Assembly: GCA_030524585.1 (NCBI GenBank)
Contig: JAUNGJ010000016.1
Span: forward strand, 1-50,843
Origin: Eubacteriales bacterium
Lineage (GTDB): Bacteria > Bacillota > Clostridia > Lachnospirales > Lachnospiraceae
Direction: 5' to 3'
DNA length: 50,843 bases
This document shows, one piece after another, positions 4,727 to 11,233 of the stretch (position 1 is the stretch's first letter; each line of letters begins with the position of its first letter). Below the pieces are notes generated by a model. It did not search any database. It saw only the letters and a list, made by a program, of their open reading frames with translations, and was not told the origin of the DNA. A program made the position numbers and the translations under genes.

Positions 4727-5875
4727 ATGATTATTAGAAATGTAAAAGTATTTACGGAAGATAAAAGGTTTGAAGAGGGTGAAGTTGTTATTACGGACGG
4801 AGTCTTTGCTGAAAAGGCAGAGTGCGAAGAAGAAGTGATTGATGGGGAGGGCTGTTATGCAATTCCTGGACTCATCGATCTTCATTTCCACGGATGCAGG
4901 GGCTATGATTTTTGCGATGGCACAGAGAAGGCCATCGAAGAGATTGCAAAATATGAAGCATCCATTGGTGTAACAGCGATTGCTCCTGCGACAATGACCC
5001 TTCCGGTAGAGGAACTTACACATATTTTGTCAGTGGCAGCTTCCTATAGGAAAACAGCAGAAAAAGAGACCCCGTTGGCAGCTGATTTGATTGGTATCAA
5101 TATGGAAGGGCCCTTTATCAGTATTGAGAAAAAGGGAGCGCAGGATGAGAGAAATATTATCACCTGTAATGCGGAAATCTGCCAGCAGTTCCTGGATGCT
5201 TCGGAGGGCCTGGTAAAATTTGTTGGAATTGCGCCTGAGAGAAATGAAAATTTCCTGAAATTCATCGATCAGATGAAGGATAAGGTTCATATAGCACTTG
5301 CACATACGAATGCAGATTACGATACGGCGAAGGCTGCCTTTGATGCAGGAGCGGATCATGCAGTACATCTCTACAATGCCATGCCGGCATTTACCCACCG
5401 TACACCGGGAGTGGTAGGAGCAGTATCTGACAGCTCCCATGTGAATGCGGAGCTGATCTGTGACGGGGTTCATATCCACCCTGCGGTTGTTCGGGCAACA
5501 TTTAAGATGATGGGGGAGGACCGGATGATTCTGATCAGCGACAGTATGCGTGCTACAGGAATGCCAGACGGGCGCTACACATTGGGAGGTCTGGATGTGG
5601 ATGTGGTTGGAAATCATGCGACCCTTGCTTCTAATGGAGCATTGGCCGGCTCGGCAACCAACCTGATGGATTGTATGAGAATAGCAGTAAAGAAGATGGG
5701 ACTCTCCCTTGAGACCGCAGTGGCGTGTGCCACGATGAATCCGGCCAAAGCGCTGGGGGCATATGAGAAGTATGGTTCCATCACACCGGGAAAGAAGGGT
5801 AATGTGGTGCTGCTGGATAAAGAGCTGAATTTGAAATTGGTAGTAAAAGACGGTGTTGTAGTCAGGAACGTATAA
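4727..5875 (+). CDS. nagA: N-acetylglucosamine-6-phosphate deacetylase
   Basis: 382-aa amidohydrolase that removes acetate from GlcNAc-6-P to give GlcN-6-P. Motifs are in the expected order: HFHG (H53, H55), metal ligand E127 in NMEGPF, H193 in LAHTNADY, H214 in HLYNAMPAFTHR, and catalytic D272 in ISDSMRATGMPDG. The length is normal for the family. The ATG follows GAAGGAGG. It completes the pathway from sialic acid to amino-sugar phosphate if an epimerase (NanE) is encoded elsewhere. Last gene of the unit; a terminator follows about 80 bp later. Confidence 0.93.
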   Translation: MIIRNVKVFTEDKRFEEGEVVITDGVFAEKAECEEEVIDGEGCYAIPGLIDLHFHGCRGYDFCDGTEKAIEEIAKYEASIGVTAIAPATMTLPVEELTHILSVAASYRKTAEKETPLAADLIGINMEGPFISIEKKGAQDERNIITCNAEICQQFLDASEGLVKFVGIAPERNENFLKFIDQMKDKVHIALAHTNADYDTAKAAFDAGADHAVHLYNAMPAFTHRTPGVVGAVSDSSHVNAELICDGVHIHPAVVRATFKMMGEDRMILISDSMRATGMPDGRYTLGGLDVDVVGNHATLASNGALAGSATNLMDCMRIAVKKMGLSLETAVACATMNPAKALGAYEKYGSITPGKKGNVVLLDKELNLKLVVKDGVVVRNV

Positions 5876-5955
5876 TACGCTGTATTCGTCCGACATATCA
5901 TATAATGCATATGCTTTGCACAATAATGTAAAATTCAATAAGATATAAATGAGAG

Positions 5956-5992
5956 TAAAGTACGAAATGAATGTTTCGTGCTTTATTTTTTT
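5956..5992 (+). terminator. Intrinsic terminator after nagA
   Basis: A 12-bp stem (TAAAGTACGAAA with TTTCGTGCTTTA, one G-T pair), a 6-nt loop, and a run of T at 5985-5992. It closes the sialic acid / amino-sugar block. Confidence 0.85.
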
Positions 5993-6133
5993 ATGCCATG
6001 GGAAATGAGGCTGAGGATGGCATGAGAAAGTCTGGTATTTCATTTGTACATTTTAGATGGTTTTTTGGCGATAATAAACTATGAATCAATTGGTTATTCA
6101 AAAAGAAATTACTGATTATAAGGAGGTTTATCT

Positions 6134-6973
6134 ATGGAAAACAGAATAGTGAGAACACAGATAATAGCATTTAAAAATATACTTGTTGAGGAAGAAAAAA
6201 GCACTGCTACTATACAGAAATATCTTCGGGATGTTGAAGCGTTTTATGAATTTGCCGGGAAGGAAAAGGTGACCAAGGATACGGCGGTTCGCTATAAGAA
6301 CTACCTGATGGAGAATTATAAGCCTTCCAGTGTCAATTCCATGCTGGCTGCAATTAATCGATTTTTTAAAGAAATGGGATGGAATGACTGCACGGTTAAG
6401 TCGTTGAAGATCCAGCGGCAGGCATTTCGCTCCAAAGAACGTGAGCTGTCTAAAGCAGAATATTTTCGTCTGCTAAAAGTGGCAAAGCAGATAAATAATA
6501 TACGGCTATATCTGCTTATGCAAACTCTCTGCGCCACTGGCATCCGTGTAAGTGAGCTGCAGTTTATTACAGTAAAGGCAGTTAAGAGGGGACGGGCTAC
6601 TGTTTCTCTGAAGGGAAAGACACGTACTGTTTTGCTTCCGGCAGACCTCTGTCGGAAACTGAAACAATATGCAAGAAAACGGGATATAGAGAGGGGAAGT
6701 ATATTTGTGACAAAAAGTGGCAGACCTATGGATCGGAGTAATATTCTTCATGAGATGAAAGCCTTATGTGAGAGGGCAAAAGTGGATCGTAATAAAGTGT
6801 TTCCTCATAACCTGCGGCATCTGTTTGCCTGCCTTTTCTATCAGACAGAAAAAGACCTGAGCCGTCTGGCAGATCTGCTGGGACATTCTAATGTGAATAC
6901 AACAAGAATTTATACCTGCGTCAGCGGAGCTGAGCAGATACGGAAAATAGAACAGCTAGGGTTGGTGATGTAG
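6134..6973 (+). CDS. Tyrosine recombinase / site-specific integrase
   Basis: 279-aa tyrosine recombinase of the short Xer-like kind. An N-terminal SAM-like core-binding domain (about 5-90) precedes the catalytic domain. All catalytic positions are present: R138 (ATGIRVSEL), K162 (KGKTR), H225-x-x-R228 (HNLRHLF), H251 (LGHSNVNTT) and nucleophile Y260 (TRIYT). It is preceded by AAGGAGG. Only 10 bp after its stop lies the first of two inverted 25-bp sites, each made of 9-bp arms around a 6-bp centre. No excisionase, phage or conjugation genes are nearby, so a local DNA invertase is more likely than a prophage integrase. Confidence 0.9.
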   Translation: MENRIVRTQIIAFKNILVEEEKSTATIQKYLRDVEAFYEFAGKEKVTKDTAVRYKNYLMENYKPSSVNSMLAAINRFFKEMGWNDCTVKSLKIQRQAFRSKERELSKAEYFRLLKVAKQINNIRLYLLMQTLCATGIRVSELQFITVKAVKRGRATVSLKGKTRTVLLPADLCRKLKQYARKRDIERGSIFVTKSGRPMDRSNILHEMKALCERAKVDRNKVFPHNLRHLFACLFYQTEKDLSRLADLLGHSNVNTTRIYTCVSGAEQIRKIEQLGLVM

Positions 6974-6983
6974 GAAAGCAAAA

Positions 6984-7008
6984 ACCGCATAACATTCATT
7001 ATGCGGTA
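6984..7008. repeat. Left inverted repeat, putative recombination site
   Basis: 25-bp element matching the reverse complement of 7174-7198 at 24 of 25 positions. Internally it is ACCGCATAA - CATTCA - TTATGCGGT: perfect 9-bp arms around a 6-bp asymmetric centre, the geometry of a tyrosine recombinase core site. It begins 10 bp after the recombinase stop. The hairpin has no T-run, so it is not a convincing terminator. Confidence 0.8.
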
Positions 7009-7108
7009 TCACACACCAGGCCAGTGATTACTTTATTGCCGGTTTCAGTATAAAAACAGCAAAATAATAGAAAAGAATAGTGATTTTGAGCAACCTTTTT
7101 CACAAGAA

Positions 7109-7137
7109 TTGAATTTACCAGCTGCCTGGGATATAAT
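7109..7137 (+). promoter_or_regulatory. Promoter inside the putative invertible segment
   Basis: TTGAAT (7109-7114), a 17-bp spacer, and perfect TATAAT (7132-7137). In the present orientation it points to the zinc-ribbon gene at 7221 (ON state). After inversion between the flanking repeats it would point into the 3' end of the recombinase instead. The right repeat lies in the 5' leader of the transcript. Confidence 0.7.
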
Positions 7138-7173
7138 AAATTGAAGCAATCAAATATGTATTTTCATTTTTCG

Positions 7174-7198
7174 TACCGCATAATGAATGTTATGTGGT
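7174..7198. repeat. Right inverted repeat, putative recombination site
   Basis: Partner of 6984-7008 in inverted orientation, with one mismatch (T at 7195). Internally ACCGCATAA - TGAATG - TTATGTGGT. The arms are symmetric, so only the 6-bp centre (TGAATG versus CATTCA on the left) gives direction. The centres are reverse complements, as needed for inversion and not excision. Confidence 0.8.
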
Positions 7199-7220
7199 AT
7201 AGAAATGTATCAGGTGGCAA

Positions 7221-8336
7221 ATGAAACAATCTTTGTACGATTTTTGTATAGAAAATAACAAAAGTGATTTACTGCAGCAGTGGGATGGTATGGCAAACGG
7301 AGAAATGACTCCTAAAACGATTACCTATGGAAGCGGCAGAAAGGCCTGGTGGCGCTGTGAAAGGGGACACACCTGGCAGGCGGTTATTAACAGTCGAAGT
7401 AATGGATGTGGGTGCCCGGTCTGTGCCGGGAAGGTTGCTCTGGATGGAGAGAATGATCTGAAAACAGAGATGTCAGAGCTTGCGAAGCAGTGGCATCCGG
7501 TTAAAAATATGCCGCTCACTCCAAGTCAGATCACAAAGGGAAGTCATCGGCTGATTTGGTGGCGCTGCGAAAAAGGGCATGAATGGAGAGCCAGTGTCAA
7601 ATCCCGGGCGGAAGGAAGTGGATGTCCAATCTGCGCAGGGCGGAAATTGCTTGTGGGAGAGAATGATCTGGTAACTGTATGCCCGGATCTGGCGACGCAG
7701 TGGCATTCCGAAAAAAATGGTACTTTAAAGCCGGAAATGGTTTTGGCAACGACGGCGCGCCGGGTTTGGTGGCGCTGTGATAAGGGGCATGAATGGCAGG
7801 CGAGAGTAAAGGATCGTATGAACGGTAACGGCTGTCCGGTATGCTGTGGCCAAAAAGCAGTCGCAGGGGTAAATGATCTGGAGAGCAGTTATCCCCTGAT
7901 TGCTGTACAGTGGCATCCGATCAAAAATGGAAAAAGAATGCCCCGGGACATTACTGCTTCCAGTAATAGACGGGTCTGGTGGCAGTGCGGCCTCGGACAT
8001 GAGTGGAAGGCCAGCGTGTGCACCCGCACCAGAGAGCAGACCGGATGCCCATACTGCGCGAACCGGAAAGTGCTTGCTGGCTTTAATGATCTGGCAACTC
8101 TGAATCCCCGGGCTGCCAAAGAATGGCATCCGACGTTAAACGGTTCTCTGACGCCGGAGCAGGTAACGATAGGAAGCAGAAAGAAGGTGTGGTGGATCTG
8201 TTCAGAGGGGCATGTGTGGAAAACAGCAGTTTATGCCAGAACCAGAGAAAAAAGCACTGGCTGTCCGGTCTGTGCCGGTAATGTGAGTCGAAAAAGACTT
8301 GACTTTTCCGGGCATAGTATATATCCTAATATTTAA
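7221..8336 (+). CDS. Five-repeat zinc-ribbon (DUF4379-like) protein
   Basis: 371-aa protein made of five tandem units of about 65 residues. Each reads roughly W-x3-N-x4-P...V/I-W-W-x-C-x2-GH-x-W-x-A...R...GCP-x-C-x-G. The C-x2-GH...CP-x-C spacing is a treble-clef or zinc-ribbon metal site. The repeats sit at about residues 43-85, 110-150, 177-215, 243-285 and 310-352. There is no signal peptide or membrane segment. This matches the probable zinc-ribbon family DUF4379 (PF14311), which has no firm function and is sometimes fused to nucleases; no nuclease domain is seen here. Expression appears to depend on the invertible promoter upstream. It ends 20 bp before the TPP riboswitch region. Confidence 0.8.
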   Translation: MKQSLYDFCIENNKSDLLQQWDGMANGEMTPKTITYGSGRKAWWRCERGHTWQAVINSRSNGCGCPVCAGKVALDGENDLKTEMSELAKQWHPVKNMPLTPSQITKGSHRLIWWRCEKGHEWRASVKSRAEGSGCPICAGRKLLVGENDLVTVCPDLATQWHSEKNGTLKPEMVLATTARRVWWRCDKGHEWQARVKDRMNGNGCPVCCGQKAVAGVNDLESSYPLIAVQWHPIKNGKRMPRDITASSNRRVWWQCGLGHEWKASVCTRTREQTGCPYCANRKVLAGFNDLATLNPRAAKEWHPTLNGSLTPEQVTIGSRKKVWWICSEGHVWKTAVYARTREKSTGCPVCAGNVSRKRLDFSGHSIYPNI

Positions 8337-8355
8337 AGAAAGTAAATAAGATTGA

Positions 8356-8446
8356 TAACAAGGGGAGCTTATTTGATAGGCTGAGAGGAAGTTTGAGACT
8401 TCGACCCATAACCTGATTTGGATAATGCCAACGTAGGGATGCGTTA
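8356..8446 (+). promoter_or_regulatory. TPP riboswitch (THI element)
   Basis: The conserved parts appear in order: GGGGAGC (about 8362), GGCTGAGAGG (8379-8388), ACCTGATTTGGATAATGCCA (8411-8430), then ACGTAGGGA. Base pairing of the flanks (TAAC with GTTA) closes P1. A short GGC-TTTAG-GCC stem with a T-run (about 8454-8475) may be the expression platform. It lies upstream of thiT, so thiamine pyrophosphate should shut off thiamine uptake. Confidence 0.93.
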
Positions 8447-8501
8447 GAGATTGGCTTTAGGCCCTTTTTGTTTTCAATCGGAGACAGGGAGGGTATTTAT
8501 T

Positions 8502-9167
8502 ATGTTTGATTTTCTGGTTAATGTGGAAGGCGGACTTACCACTGCAGGATATGCAGTATGTGTGACTGTCGGAATTGCATTGTTTGCTGTGGCACTGTTT
8601 TTTGCCGGAAAGAGTTCTAAGAAAAAGAAGACAAGCACGAGGCAGCTTGTATACTGTGCAGTTGCAATTGCTCTGGCGTTTGTAACTTCTTATATGAAGG
8701 TTCTGACATTGCCGTGGGGAGGTTCGGTGACACTGTGCAGTATGCTGTTTATTGTGCTGGTGGCAAACTGGTATGGGGTACAGACAGGAATTTTGGTAGG
8801 ACTTTCCTATGGACTTCTTCAATTTATTCAGGAGCCGTTTGTATTATCTTTCTTTCAGGTGTGCTGCGATTATGTGCTGGCGTTCGCAGCATTGGGAATT
8901 GCAGGTTTTTTTGCAAAGAGTAAGCATGGTTTGCTAAAAGGATATATTGCGGCAGTGTTCGCCAGAGGTGTATTTCATTCTCTTGGAGGGTATCTGTATT
9001 GGATGGATTATATGCCGGAGAGCTTCCCACAGTCGTTAAAGAGTATCTATCCGATTGCATATAACTACAGTTATCTGCTTGCAGAGGCAGTAATTACAAT
9101 CATTATCATATCGGTACCTGCTGTGGCAAAAGGACTTAGAAGAGTAAAGCAGACTGCGCTGAATTAA
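8502..9167 (+). CDS. thiT: Energy-coupled thiamine transporter ThiT (ECF S component)
   Basis: 221-aa membrane protein with an extra N-terminal hydrophobic helix (about residues 12-35) and then the six-helix ThiT fold. Family motifs include [19 protein letters not shown] and, near the C-terminus, [12 protein letters not shown] followed by an aromatic stretch typical of thiamine binding. It would use the shared ECF energising module (EcfAA'T) encoded elsewhere. A longer frame from a TTG at 8451 would run into the riboswitch expression platform; the ATG at 8502 after CAGGGAGGG is chosen. The TPP riboswitch supports the call independently. Confidence 0.92.
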
Positions 9168-9182
9168 CAGCGCGGTTTTTTA
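9154..9182 (+). terminator. Intrinsic terminator overlapping the end of thiT
   Basis: An 8-bp stem CTGCGCTG / CAGCGCGG with the loop AATTAA that holds the thiT stop codon, followed by at least six T. Confidence 0.88.
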
Positions 9183-9232
9183 TTGGAAACTTTGGTTATA
9201 CTATCCCTACTAAATTAAGTGGAGGGAAAAAG

Positions 9233-11233
9233 ATGTCAAATCATTTGAGTAATGAGAAATCACCATATCTGCTTCAGCACAAGGACAATCCGGTAGATTG
9301 GTATCCCTGGTGCAGAGAAGCCTTTGAAAAATCAGCAAGAGAAGACAGGCCGATATTCTTAAGTATCGGCTATTCTACGTGTCACTGGTGTCATGTGATG
9401 GCTCATGAGTCCTTTGAAGATAGAGAGGTTGCCCAAATATTGAACCGGGAATATATCTGTATTAAAGTGGATCGGGAGGAACGGCCGGATGTTGATTCAG
9501 TGTATATGTCGGTATGTCAGGCGGTTACAGGGGCAGGGGGATGGCCTCTTACCGTTATTATGACCCCGGAGCAGAAACCGTTTTTTGTAGGGACATATTT
9601 CCCCAAATACCGTCGGTATGGACAGGCAGGGCTTATTGAGATGCTTGAGATGATAGCGGATATGTGGAAAAACAGCCGTGAGGAGCTTCTGGCTTCAGGA
9701 GAAGAAATTACGGCAGTAATTAGGCAGAACAGAATAAATAGGAATAAGGAGCCGGAAAAGGAGATTCTGCGCAAAGCTTATGAGCTGTTTCAGAGACAGT
9801 TCGATGCTGTATGGGGAGGTTTTGGATTAGCACCGAAATTCCCTGCACCACACAATCTGCTGTTTCTGATGAGATATGCAGTTTCAGAAAACGTACCGGA
9901 TGCCATGAAGATGGCAGAGATCACCCTGGATGCTATGGGCAAAGGCGGTATGTATGATCAGATTGGCGGAGGCTTTTCCCGGTATTCTACGGATGACAGA
10001 TGGCTGGTACCTCATTTTGAGAAAATGCTGTATGATAATGCGCTTTTGACTCTTGCATATCTGAATGCATATCAGATTACCGGAAAGAAAGAGTATGCAC
10101 ATATTGCAAGGTGTACGGCAGATTATATTCTGGGGGAGCTTAAAGATGAAAAAGGTGGTTTTTACTGTGGACAGGATGCGGACAGTGAGGGAGAGGAAGG
10201 GAAGTATTATGTATTTACGCCGGAAGAAATAAAGAGGGTTCTTGGAGAAAGGGATGGGGCTGAGTTCTGTGCTCTTTATGGGATAACGGAGGATGGAAAT
10301 TTTGAAGGGAAAAGTATTCCTAATCGTATTGGACAAAAGCTGTCTGGCTGGAATGCAGATGATTGGCGTATTAAGAAATTATACCAATACAGGCTTACAC
10401 GTACCAGGCTCCACAAAGACGATAAAATATTGCTGTCCTGGAATGGATGGGCAATAATAGCGCTTATCCGGACAGGACAGATTCTCGAAGAGGGGCGCTG
10501 TTATGAGGCGGCCTTCAGGGCACAGCATTTTATAGAAGAGTATATGACGGATCAGGACAACCGCCTGTATCTTCGATTTCGGGATGGTGAAGCAGCGCAT
10601 ATGGGGCAGCTTGATGATTATGCAGTCTATGTTCTTGCGCTTCTGGAATTATATTAGGGAACGCTGAAGATAAAGTATTTACAGAAGGCGATTCAATATG
10701 CGAAGCAGATGCAGACATTGTTTGAGGATAAGGAGGGAGGATATTATCTGACTTCGTCTGACGGGGAGAAGCTGATTGTCCGGCCGAAGGAAATTTATGA
10801 TGGGGCGATTCCGTCGGGAAATTCTGTGGCAGGTCTGGTTCTTCTTACACTTGCTGCTTTAACTGGGGAAGAAACATGGCAGGAAGCAGCGGACAGGCAG
10901 TTTCGGTTTTTGGCAGGTGTGGCAGAAGATTATCCAGTGGGACACAGTTTTGCTATGTATGCATTTGCGGAGGCTTTTTATCCACATAAAGAGCTGCTAT
11001 GTGCCATAAGAGGAGAATTACCGGAGGAATTAACAGAATATTTGAGAAAAACGCCAGGCTATGGATTAAATATTCTGGTAAAGACGTCGGATAATGAGAA
11101 GGAATTAGCAGAGTGTGCTCCTTATACGAAGGATTACCCACTTCCGGAAAGGGGAGCAGTGTATTATCTGTGTGAGAATGGCACATGCAGAACACCTGTA
11201 ACGGAATTTGGTGAGTTGGGGCTTAAATTTTAG
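9233..11233 (+). pseudogene. DUF255 / thioredoxin-like protein (YyaL/SPATA20 family), in-frame TAG
   Basis: Two parts of one 666-codon reading frame separated by a single TAG at 10655-10657 (codon 475). The first part has the family start [20 protein letters not shown], the thioredoxin-like CHWC motif (C50, C53), and the six-hairpin glycosidase-like region. The second part resumes at once in the same frame (GTLKIKYLQKAIQYAKQM) and runs to a normal C-terminus. A glutamate codon (GAG to TAG) is the simplest origin. It could be a recent nonsense mutation, a sequencing error or readthrough. No RBS marks a restart; the nearest ATG is at 10709. The family function is not settled. Confidence 0.85.

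Follow-up and report, generated by a model that had tools for sequence, protein, structure and literature searches.

A putative invertible promoter between a tyrosine recombinase gene and a DUF4379 zinc-finger gene in a Lachnospiraceae bacterium

Known inversion switches

Invertons linked to recombinase genes have already been seen in sequencing reads of Clostridia, as described in two studies (PMC11892184; PMC5903667), and the switch reported here is therefore a further case of a known kind. The less expected part is its target, a gene encoding a DUF4379 protein. The switch lies in a contig of 50,843 nucleotides (JAUNGJ010000016.1, assembly GCA_030524585.1), the whole of which is referred to here as the window. 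In the hCom2 survey, 32 of the 33 members of inverton group 139 are from Clostridia and nearly all lie beside a gene of invertase group 35, a tyrosine-type recombinase/integrase; the coordinates of the two members quoted in its text give interiors of 205 and 227 bp, and both members change orientation in the sequencing data (PMC11892184). The family to which the window belongs resembles this group in being found mostly in Clostridia, in its adjoining tyrosine recombinase, and in its short segment, and is likely identical with it. The main text of the survey does not contain the word "zinc" and names no DUF4379 or zinc-finger targets (PMC11892184).

In C. difficile, the cwpV and flagellar switches are those of RecV, a Xer-type tyrosine recombinase (PMC2784873, PMC5903667). 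The cwpV switch, in which imperfect 21-bp inverted repeats flank 195 bp, represents phase variation in Clostridia, as the window would, but its published description proposes a terminator in the transcript and a promoter outside the segment, whereas the window has a promoter-like sequence inside (PMC2784873). Moreover, recV does not lie close to cwpV, whereas the recombinase gene of the window adjoins its sites (PMC2784873, PMC5903667). Invertible promoters also drive the surface polysaccharide operons of Bacteroides fragilis, where FinA and Tsr19 have been described, and Tsr19, which acts on the LC promoter, is a tyrosine recombinase and hence of the same enzyme type as that of the window (PMC3090145). 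The Bacteroides capsule switches differ in belonging to another phylum and in having UpxY and UpxZ, not DUF4379, as regulators; genes for these two open most capsule operons of Bacteroides, and their products promote their own operon or repress others (PMC7315117).

The literature searched contained no description of a DUF4379 gene controlled by an invertible promoter. Judged from their listing, none of the publications naming DUF4379 concerned phase variation, and those joining treble clef with phase variation were unrelated. We found no literature joining zinc-ribbon domain proteins with invertons; invertible promoter and (tyrosine) recombinase with Lachnospiraceae; or phase variation, invertible promoters, and tyrosine recombinase with Firmicutes. 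Among the matches listed, no title joined capsule switching with Lachnospiraceae.

Anatomy of the recombination sites

A repeat search of the window returned an inverted pair at 6984-7008 and 7174-7198, 25 nt long and 96% complementary, with 165 nt between the arms; in register, the pair reads as 24-bp sites, each consisting of a 9-bp arm, a 6-bp core, and a second 9-bp arm (Table 1). This agrees with the first-pass annotation, which had recognized two 25-bp inverted repeats with 9-bp arms and 6-bp centres starting 10 bp past the recombinase gene; the stop of that open reading frame (6134-6973) is indeed 10 bp from the left site. The distance of about 185 bp given there between the repeats fits that from core centre to core centre, but not the interior, which measures 167 bp. 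Its centres, CATTCA and TGAATG, are reverse complements as stated, and the left and right cores are thus identical once read on the same strand, while the arms differ at 1 position. When positions 6900-7260 were searched against the 2.8-Mb assembly at an E value of ≤0.001, no site copies were found elsewhere; all matches fell on that region or on its two sites.

Table 1. Coordinates of the features of the putative switch in the window
Feature	Position	Strand	Description
Tyrosine recombinase	6134..6973	+	279 aa, Phage_integrase PF00589 and N-terminal SAM-like PF02899; intact ORF
Intrinsic-terminator-like hairpin	6974..7007	-	Left site and U-run, for leftward transcripts; predicted
Left recombination site	6984..7007	.	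ACCGCATAA-CATTCA-TTATGCGGT
Invertible segment interior (putative)	7008..7174	.	167 bp; inverted homologue in L190
Sigma-70-like promoter	7109..7137	+	TTGAAT-17-TATAAT; -10 end 37 nt from inner edge of right site
Right recombination site, inverted	7175..7198	.	ACCGCATAA-TGAATG-TTATGTGGT; 1 arm mismatch versus left
Target gene, DUF4379 (PF14311)	7221..8336	+	371 aa, five-repeat treble-clef zinc finger, N-terminal SLYDFC...LLQQW

The recombinase and its family

Residues R138, K160/K162, H225, R228, H251, and Y260, which we take to be the catalytic set of the window recombinase, are invariant in 15 aligned recombinases (that of the window and 14 homologues). The best curated matches and the best solved-structure matches (profile of A1) are to the Xer family proteins XerA, XerC, and XerD, whose curated cut-offs are missed by far (149.2 versus 220, 117.4 versus 335.15, and 126.9 versus 329.6 bits, respectively). 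The sites of the window form a private inverted pair and differ in this from a chromosomal dif site.

Relatives of the recombinase were drawn from a protein search of 61 genomes, its own included (21 of the 22 matches outside its own genome were used), and from a scan of GTDB species genomes, of which the best 80 of at least 586 relatives, mostly Clostridia by title, were kept. This yielded 101 loci besides the window; 7 with less than 250 bp downstream were dropped, and 95 including the window were tested. An inverted-repeat pair scoring ≥17 was present downstream of the recombinase in 74 of these 95 loci, compared with 2 of 93 upstream regions (those with more than 250 bp there) and none of 95 downstream regions after one mononucleotide shuffle each. 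A dyad search added five pairs (L028, L032, L018, L073, and L021), all with identical cores, and L012, whose sites stand about 1.7 kb apart through an insertion, was also counted, bringing the total to 80 of 95 loci (74 + 5 + 1). The first-pass annotation had held that repeats not conserved beside recombinase homologues would refute its interpretation; they are kept in these 80 loci. By the same criteria, no pair was found in 15 of 95 loci (L015, L016, L023, L025, L033, L042, L060, L066, L071, L079, L081, L087, L089, L095, and L099), four of which are remote (29-34% identity), while L033 is cut by a contig end and L066 has a weak pair with a matching core that was left out of the count.

Within the 74 pairs, 1 of 409 bp was mismatched in the cores and 118 of 1332 bp in the arms, figures to be read with the bias toward matched centres that comes from seeding the pairs on exact matches. 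The same 74 loci have 63 distinct cores. Arms with GCATAA were found in 10 of the 12 loci whose recombinase is at least 57% identical to that of the window and in 1 of 66 below this value, the cut having been picked after the ranking was seen. The arm type follows the recombinase, and most cores are private to their locus; the core/arm pattern is what would be left by a recombinase that reads the arms and needs core identity.

Several loci depart from the simple arrangement. A strong inverted pair (score, 23) is located upstream of the recombinase in L071, which has none downstream; the sole other upstream match of the control, in L007 (score, 17), accompanies a downstream pair. L072 has three sites with one and the same core, one on the left and two on the right (4843, 5073, and 5135), from which two segment lengths could invert. 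The sister genomes G010 and G007 are about 99.5% identical in the region of L108 and L109, apart from an insertion of about 1.7 kb in G010 that separates the two recombination sites (L108, 3458-5424, versus L109).

Orientation of the segment

The assembly of the window contains the segment in a single orientation, and it is for this reason that we infer, rather than observe, flipping of this copy. The 26 pairs of homologous segments compared, which are not independent because members recur among them, had the same orientation in 16 cases and were inverted in 10; one of the latter, L040/L059, matched in both orientations. The closest locus among the matches listed is on contig C73 of genome G170, where the recombinase is 78% identical and the promoter end of the segment is inverted with respect to it. 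Positions 7132-7198 of the window match G170 positions 7145-7081 at 75%, and the -35/-10 region aligns once the G170 sequence is reverse-complemented, giving an inverted TTGCTT-17-TATAAT there. The comparison with related genomes that had been proposed as a check therefore finds both orientations among homologues, including G170. In 9 of the 101 loci the contig ends no more than 400 nt past the recombinase match, compared with 3 of 101 on its upstream side, and the contig of L044 stops precisely with the final base of its site. Reads of mixed orientation could account for such downstream ends.

The single orientation and the arm mismatch of the right site would also fit a decayed or locked inverton, with sites and recombinase intact in sequence, no flipping, and an effectively constitutive promoter. 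We consider this unlikely, because the presumed catalytic residues are all present, arm mismatches are common in the family (the 118 in 74 pairs), and the closest relative among the matches listed has the opposite orientation.

Promoter and terminator

The TTGAAT-17-TATAAT promoter that had been reported to point at the zinc-finger gene is present on the plus strand. In the deposited assembly it faces the DUF4379 gene, and the earlier designation "ON" is therefore correct for this assembly. Between positions 5800 and 8600 there are 10 promoter-like sites, versus 5.4 (standard deviation, 2.5) in shuffles, and the score of the window promoter is matched by 9% of shuffled segments, which alone is not significant; taken by itself, this sequence would be weak evidence for a switch. 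Across the family, a promoter score of ≥11.5 was reached in 40 of 79 segments versus 0.8% of 790 dinucleotide shuffles. Strong family promoters (score, ≥10.5) end 30 to 75 nt from the site edge in 52 of 60 cases, with a median of 36.5 nt, compared with 37 nt in the window. At the family level, the sequences thus point to a promoter inside the segment. Thirteen of the 60 strong promoters aim at the target and 47 back toward the recombinase, and a looser count of direction in 76 segments gave 20 toward the target, 53 toward the recombinase, and 3 ties.

The left site with its U-run folds at -12.4 kcal/mol (z, -5.1) and scores as a terminator on the minus strand. When a run was defined as A or T at 5 or more of 8 positions beyond a site, the left site had an A-run on its outer side in 34 of 74 loci and a T-run in 1; the right site had a T-run there in 4 of 74 and an A-run in 14. 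Together with the palindrome of the left site, the A-run would make a terminator for transcripts running leftward, which may keep the recombinase gene from being transcribed antisense in the OFF state.

That the sites form hairpins also bears on control by transcription termination with a segment that does not carry the promoter, for which the cwpV switch of C. difficile is a described precedent in Clostridia (PMC2784873). Such control is very improbable here, since promoter-like sites are enriched in the family segments, where they keep a similar spacing from the edge of the site, and since 34 of 74 loci have a U-run outside the left site, on the far side from the gene, versus 4 of 74 with one on the gene side. 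It is hardly credible that the palindromes serve as terminators in both directions or as binding sites, with the recombinase being a mobile-element integrase that has its target elsewhere: the energy and minus-strand score of the left-site hairpin would fit, but a terminator has no need of a partner 190 bp off whose core is inverted and identical, the cores match within loci and mostly differ among them, the site pair goes with the recombinase gene in 80 of 95 loci, and the genome has no other site copy at an E value of ≤0.001.

From the anatomy of the sites, their family-wide conservation, the core/arm pattern, and the opposite orientation seen in homologues, we estimate a probability of roughly 90% that the region is a site-specific DNA-inversion switch (inverton) flipped by the recombinase encoded at 6134-6973, and the invertible-promoter interpretation of the first-pass annotation is supported. 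The adjacent enzyme, presumably the one acting here, would bind the 9-bp arms of both sites, and strand cutting and exchange across the 6-bp core would flip the 167-bp segment. In the assembled orientation, the promoter, if functional, would drive transcription to the right, across the right site and into the DUF4379 gene (ON). In the flipped orientation it would read leftward (OFF), and the left site with its U-run would act as a terminator at which the transcript stops just short of antisense entry into the recombinase gene.

The DUF4379 protein and its neighborhood

The product of the target gene matches DUF4379 in five stretches with 331.9 bits versus a gathering cut-off of 24.5, and a signal peptide is absent as judged by eye. 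Its structure model is a locally confident treble-clef array (pLDDT, 90.2; pTM, 0.57). Mitoribosomal entries, to judge by their titles mostly from trypanosomatids, make up all seven PDB matches at an E value of ≤0.001, and the model also resembles viral endonuclease or zinc-finger proteins; because of these resemblances, nucleic-acid binding by the protein is likely. UpxY is kin to NusG and acts on transcript elongation. The treble-clef array of the model thus differs from the NusG-like UpxY, and no NusG was among the 50 PDB matches listed.

The gene stands alone before a TPP riboswitch and thiT and heads no capsule operon. A promoter-like site (8299-8327) lies in its end, directly followed by the riboswitch (8351-8458) and then by the thiamine transporter gene; a search of Rfam over 5800-9300 gave the TPP riboswitch and nothing else. 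No own-genus orthologues of the DUF4379 gene were found in 10 other genomes at an E value of ≤1e-40. The amidohydrolase and thiT genes that flank the region are not adjacent in G010 (1855517 versus 1321804) or in G007 (2816506 versus 248134), and therefore no empty site could be read. DUF4379 is scarce, being found in 18 of 299 family, 14 of 391 class, and 12 of 397 family genomes, the last with another query and all with differing cut-offs. A defence role for DUF4379 was dropped, the PADLOC match being single and weak (14.1 bits; E value, 0.0054).

Targets of the switch family

By eye, the genes after the switch are diverse, encoding large signal-peptide-like, signal peptidase-like, TetR-like, and TIR-like proteins, among others. 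The TIR-like protein is downstream of the switch in L102, possibly a case of phase-variable defence. A DUF4379 gene follows the switch in the window and in L045, L062, L066, L072, and L100, that of L062 being cut by a contig end and that of L066 apparently having an interrupted reading frame; a gene for a large signal-peptide-like protein comes after it in L045 (past a 76-aa open reading frame), L100, and L072. In G170 the switch heads genes for signal peptidase-, adhesin-, pilin-, and sortase-like proteins (by eye), and the last gene, about 7.7 kb downstream of the switch, encodes a DUF4379 protein 75% identical to that of the window. The window may be a stripped version of this arrangement, or G170 an expanded one.

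The N terminus of the DUF4379 protein goes with the presence of repeats. In 12 of 13 N-complete genes with an SLxx[YF]C start, a set partly drawn from the recombinase loci and including 8 genes from a single genome, G315, the 1.8 kb upstream of the gene contains an inverted repeat of ≥15 bp; the remaining gene is the last of a pilus-like operon headed by an inverton. Among 21 genes without this start, L066 and L157 were set aside; they have upstream repeats of 15 and 34 bp, respectively, and by eye a variant start (in another frame stretch in L066 and with G for S in L157). The other 19 have no upstream repeat of more than 12 bp, and three of them (L110, L113, and L122) have a similar SLxxWC start.

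In G315, which belongs to a different genus within the family, DUF4379 genes on contigs C2, C9, C16, C20, C21, C27, C36, C42, and C73 (L155-L161, L186, L187, and L192-L195) lie behind a different site family, TTTCGCAGAT-N7-ATCTGCGAAA. A search with this pattern at ≤3 mismatches returned 20 sites in 10 pairs, and a reversed control pattern returned 0 at the same limit. Nine pairs precede DUF4379 genes, two of these being cut by contig ends, and the tenth flanks an integrase-like gene. The arms are common to the pairs and the cores mostly private, with two cores each found in two loci (C27/C42 and C2/C21). In six of the seven segments scored, the promoter points away from the gene (OFF); in the seventh, L156, it points to its gene (ON), and this segment aligns inverted to the other six. 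One DUF4379 locus of G315 has a tyrosine integrase gene inside its invertible segment (L157/L192, 16008-17171), and another, recognized by eye, lies inside a related site pair on C62 (L188, 202-1359); both are candidate trans-acting invertases.

In G315, polysaccharide genes lie downstream of the DUF4379 gene in all four loci whose downstream sequence is readable. Nineteen chosen open reading frames downstream of these loci were run against Pfam, and one of the proteins had no match; bacterial sugar transferases and flippase-type proteins were represented in every locus, glycosyltransferases in three of the four, and polymerase-type families in two. In G775 (L246 and L247), two short DUF4379 genes (MNAVEYC and MNLIEYC) head polysaccharide-like operons by eye and have divergent integrase-like genes upstream, and no inverted repeat of more than 12 bp was found upstream of either DUF4379 gene. 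G775 is in this respect a partial exception to a general reading of DUF4379. By eye, the two loci share an imperfect inverted repeat, with a GGCGCGTT-CTCGTCT-like motif, between the DUF4379 and integrase-like genes.

We tentatively suggest, as a possibility that we would not yet favor, that the short DUF4379 proteins (SLxx[YF]C...LxxQW) of Clostridia form a new class of operon-linked regulators acting on surface layers that can be switched, whose genes lead or close inverton-controlled capsule, adhesin, and pilus operons. They might play a part like that of UpxY/UpxZ, to which their gene position offers an apparent parallel, binding nucleic acid and promoting their own operon or silencing others; the solitary copy of the window could then act in trans.

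Implications

If the switch of the window flips, expression of its zinc-finger array would be heterogeneous within a clonal population. The recombinase family provides a set of invertons, mostly from Clostridia, with readable site specificity. If DUF4379 proteins do regulate switchable capsule or pilus operons, a domain of unknown function would gain a testable role, and Clostridia would gain a counterpart of the capsule-switching system of Bacteroides.
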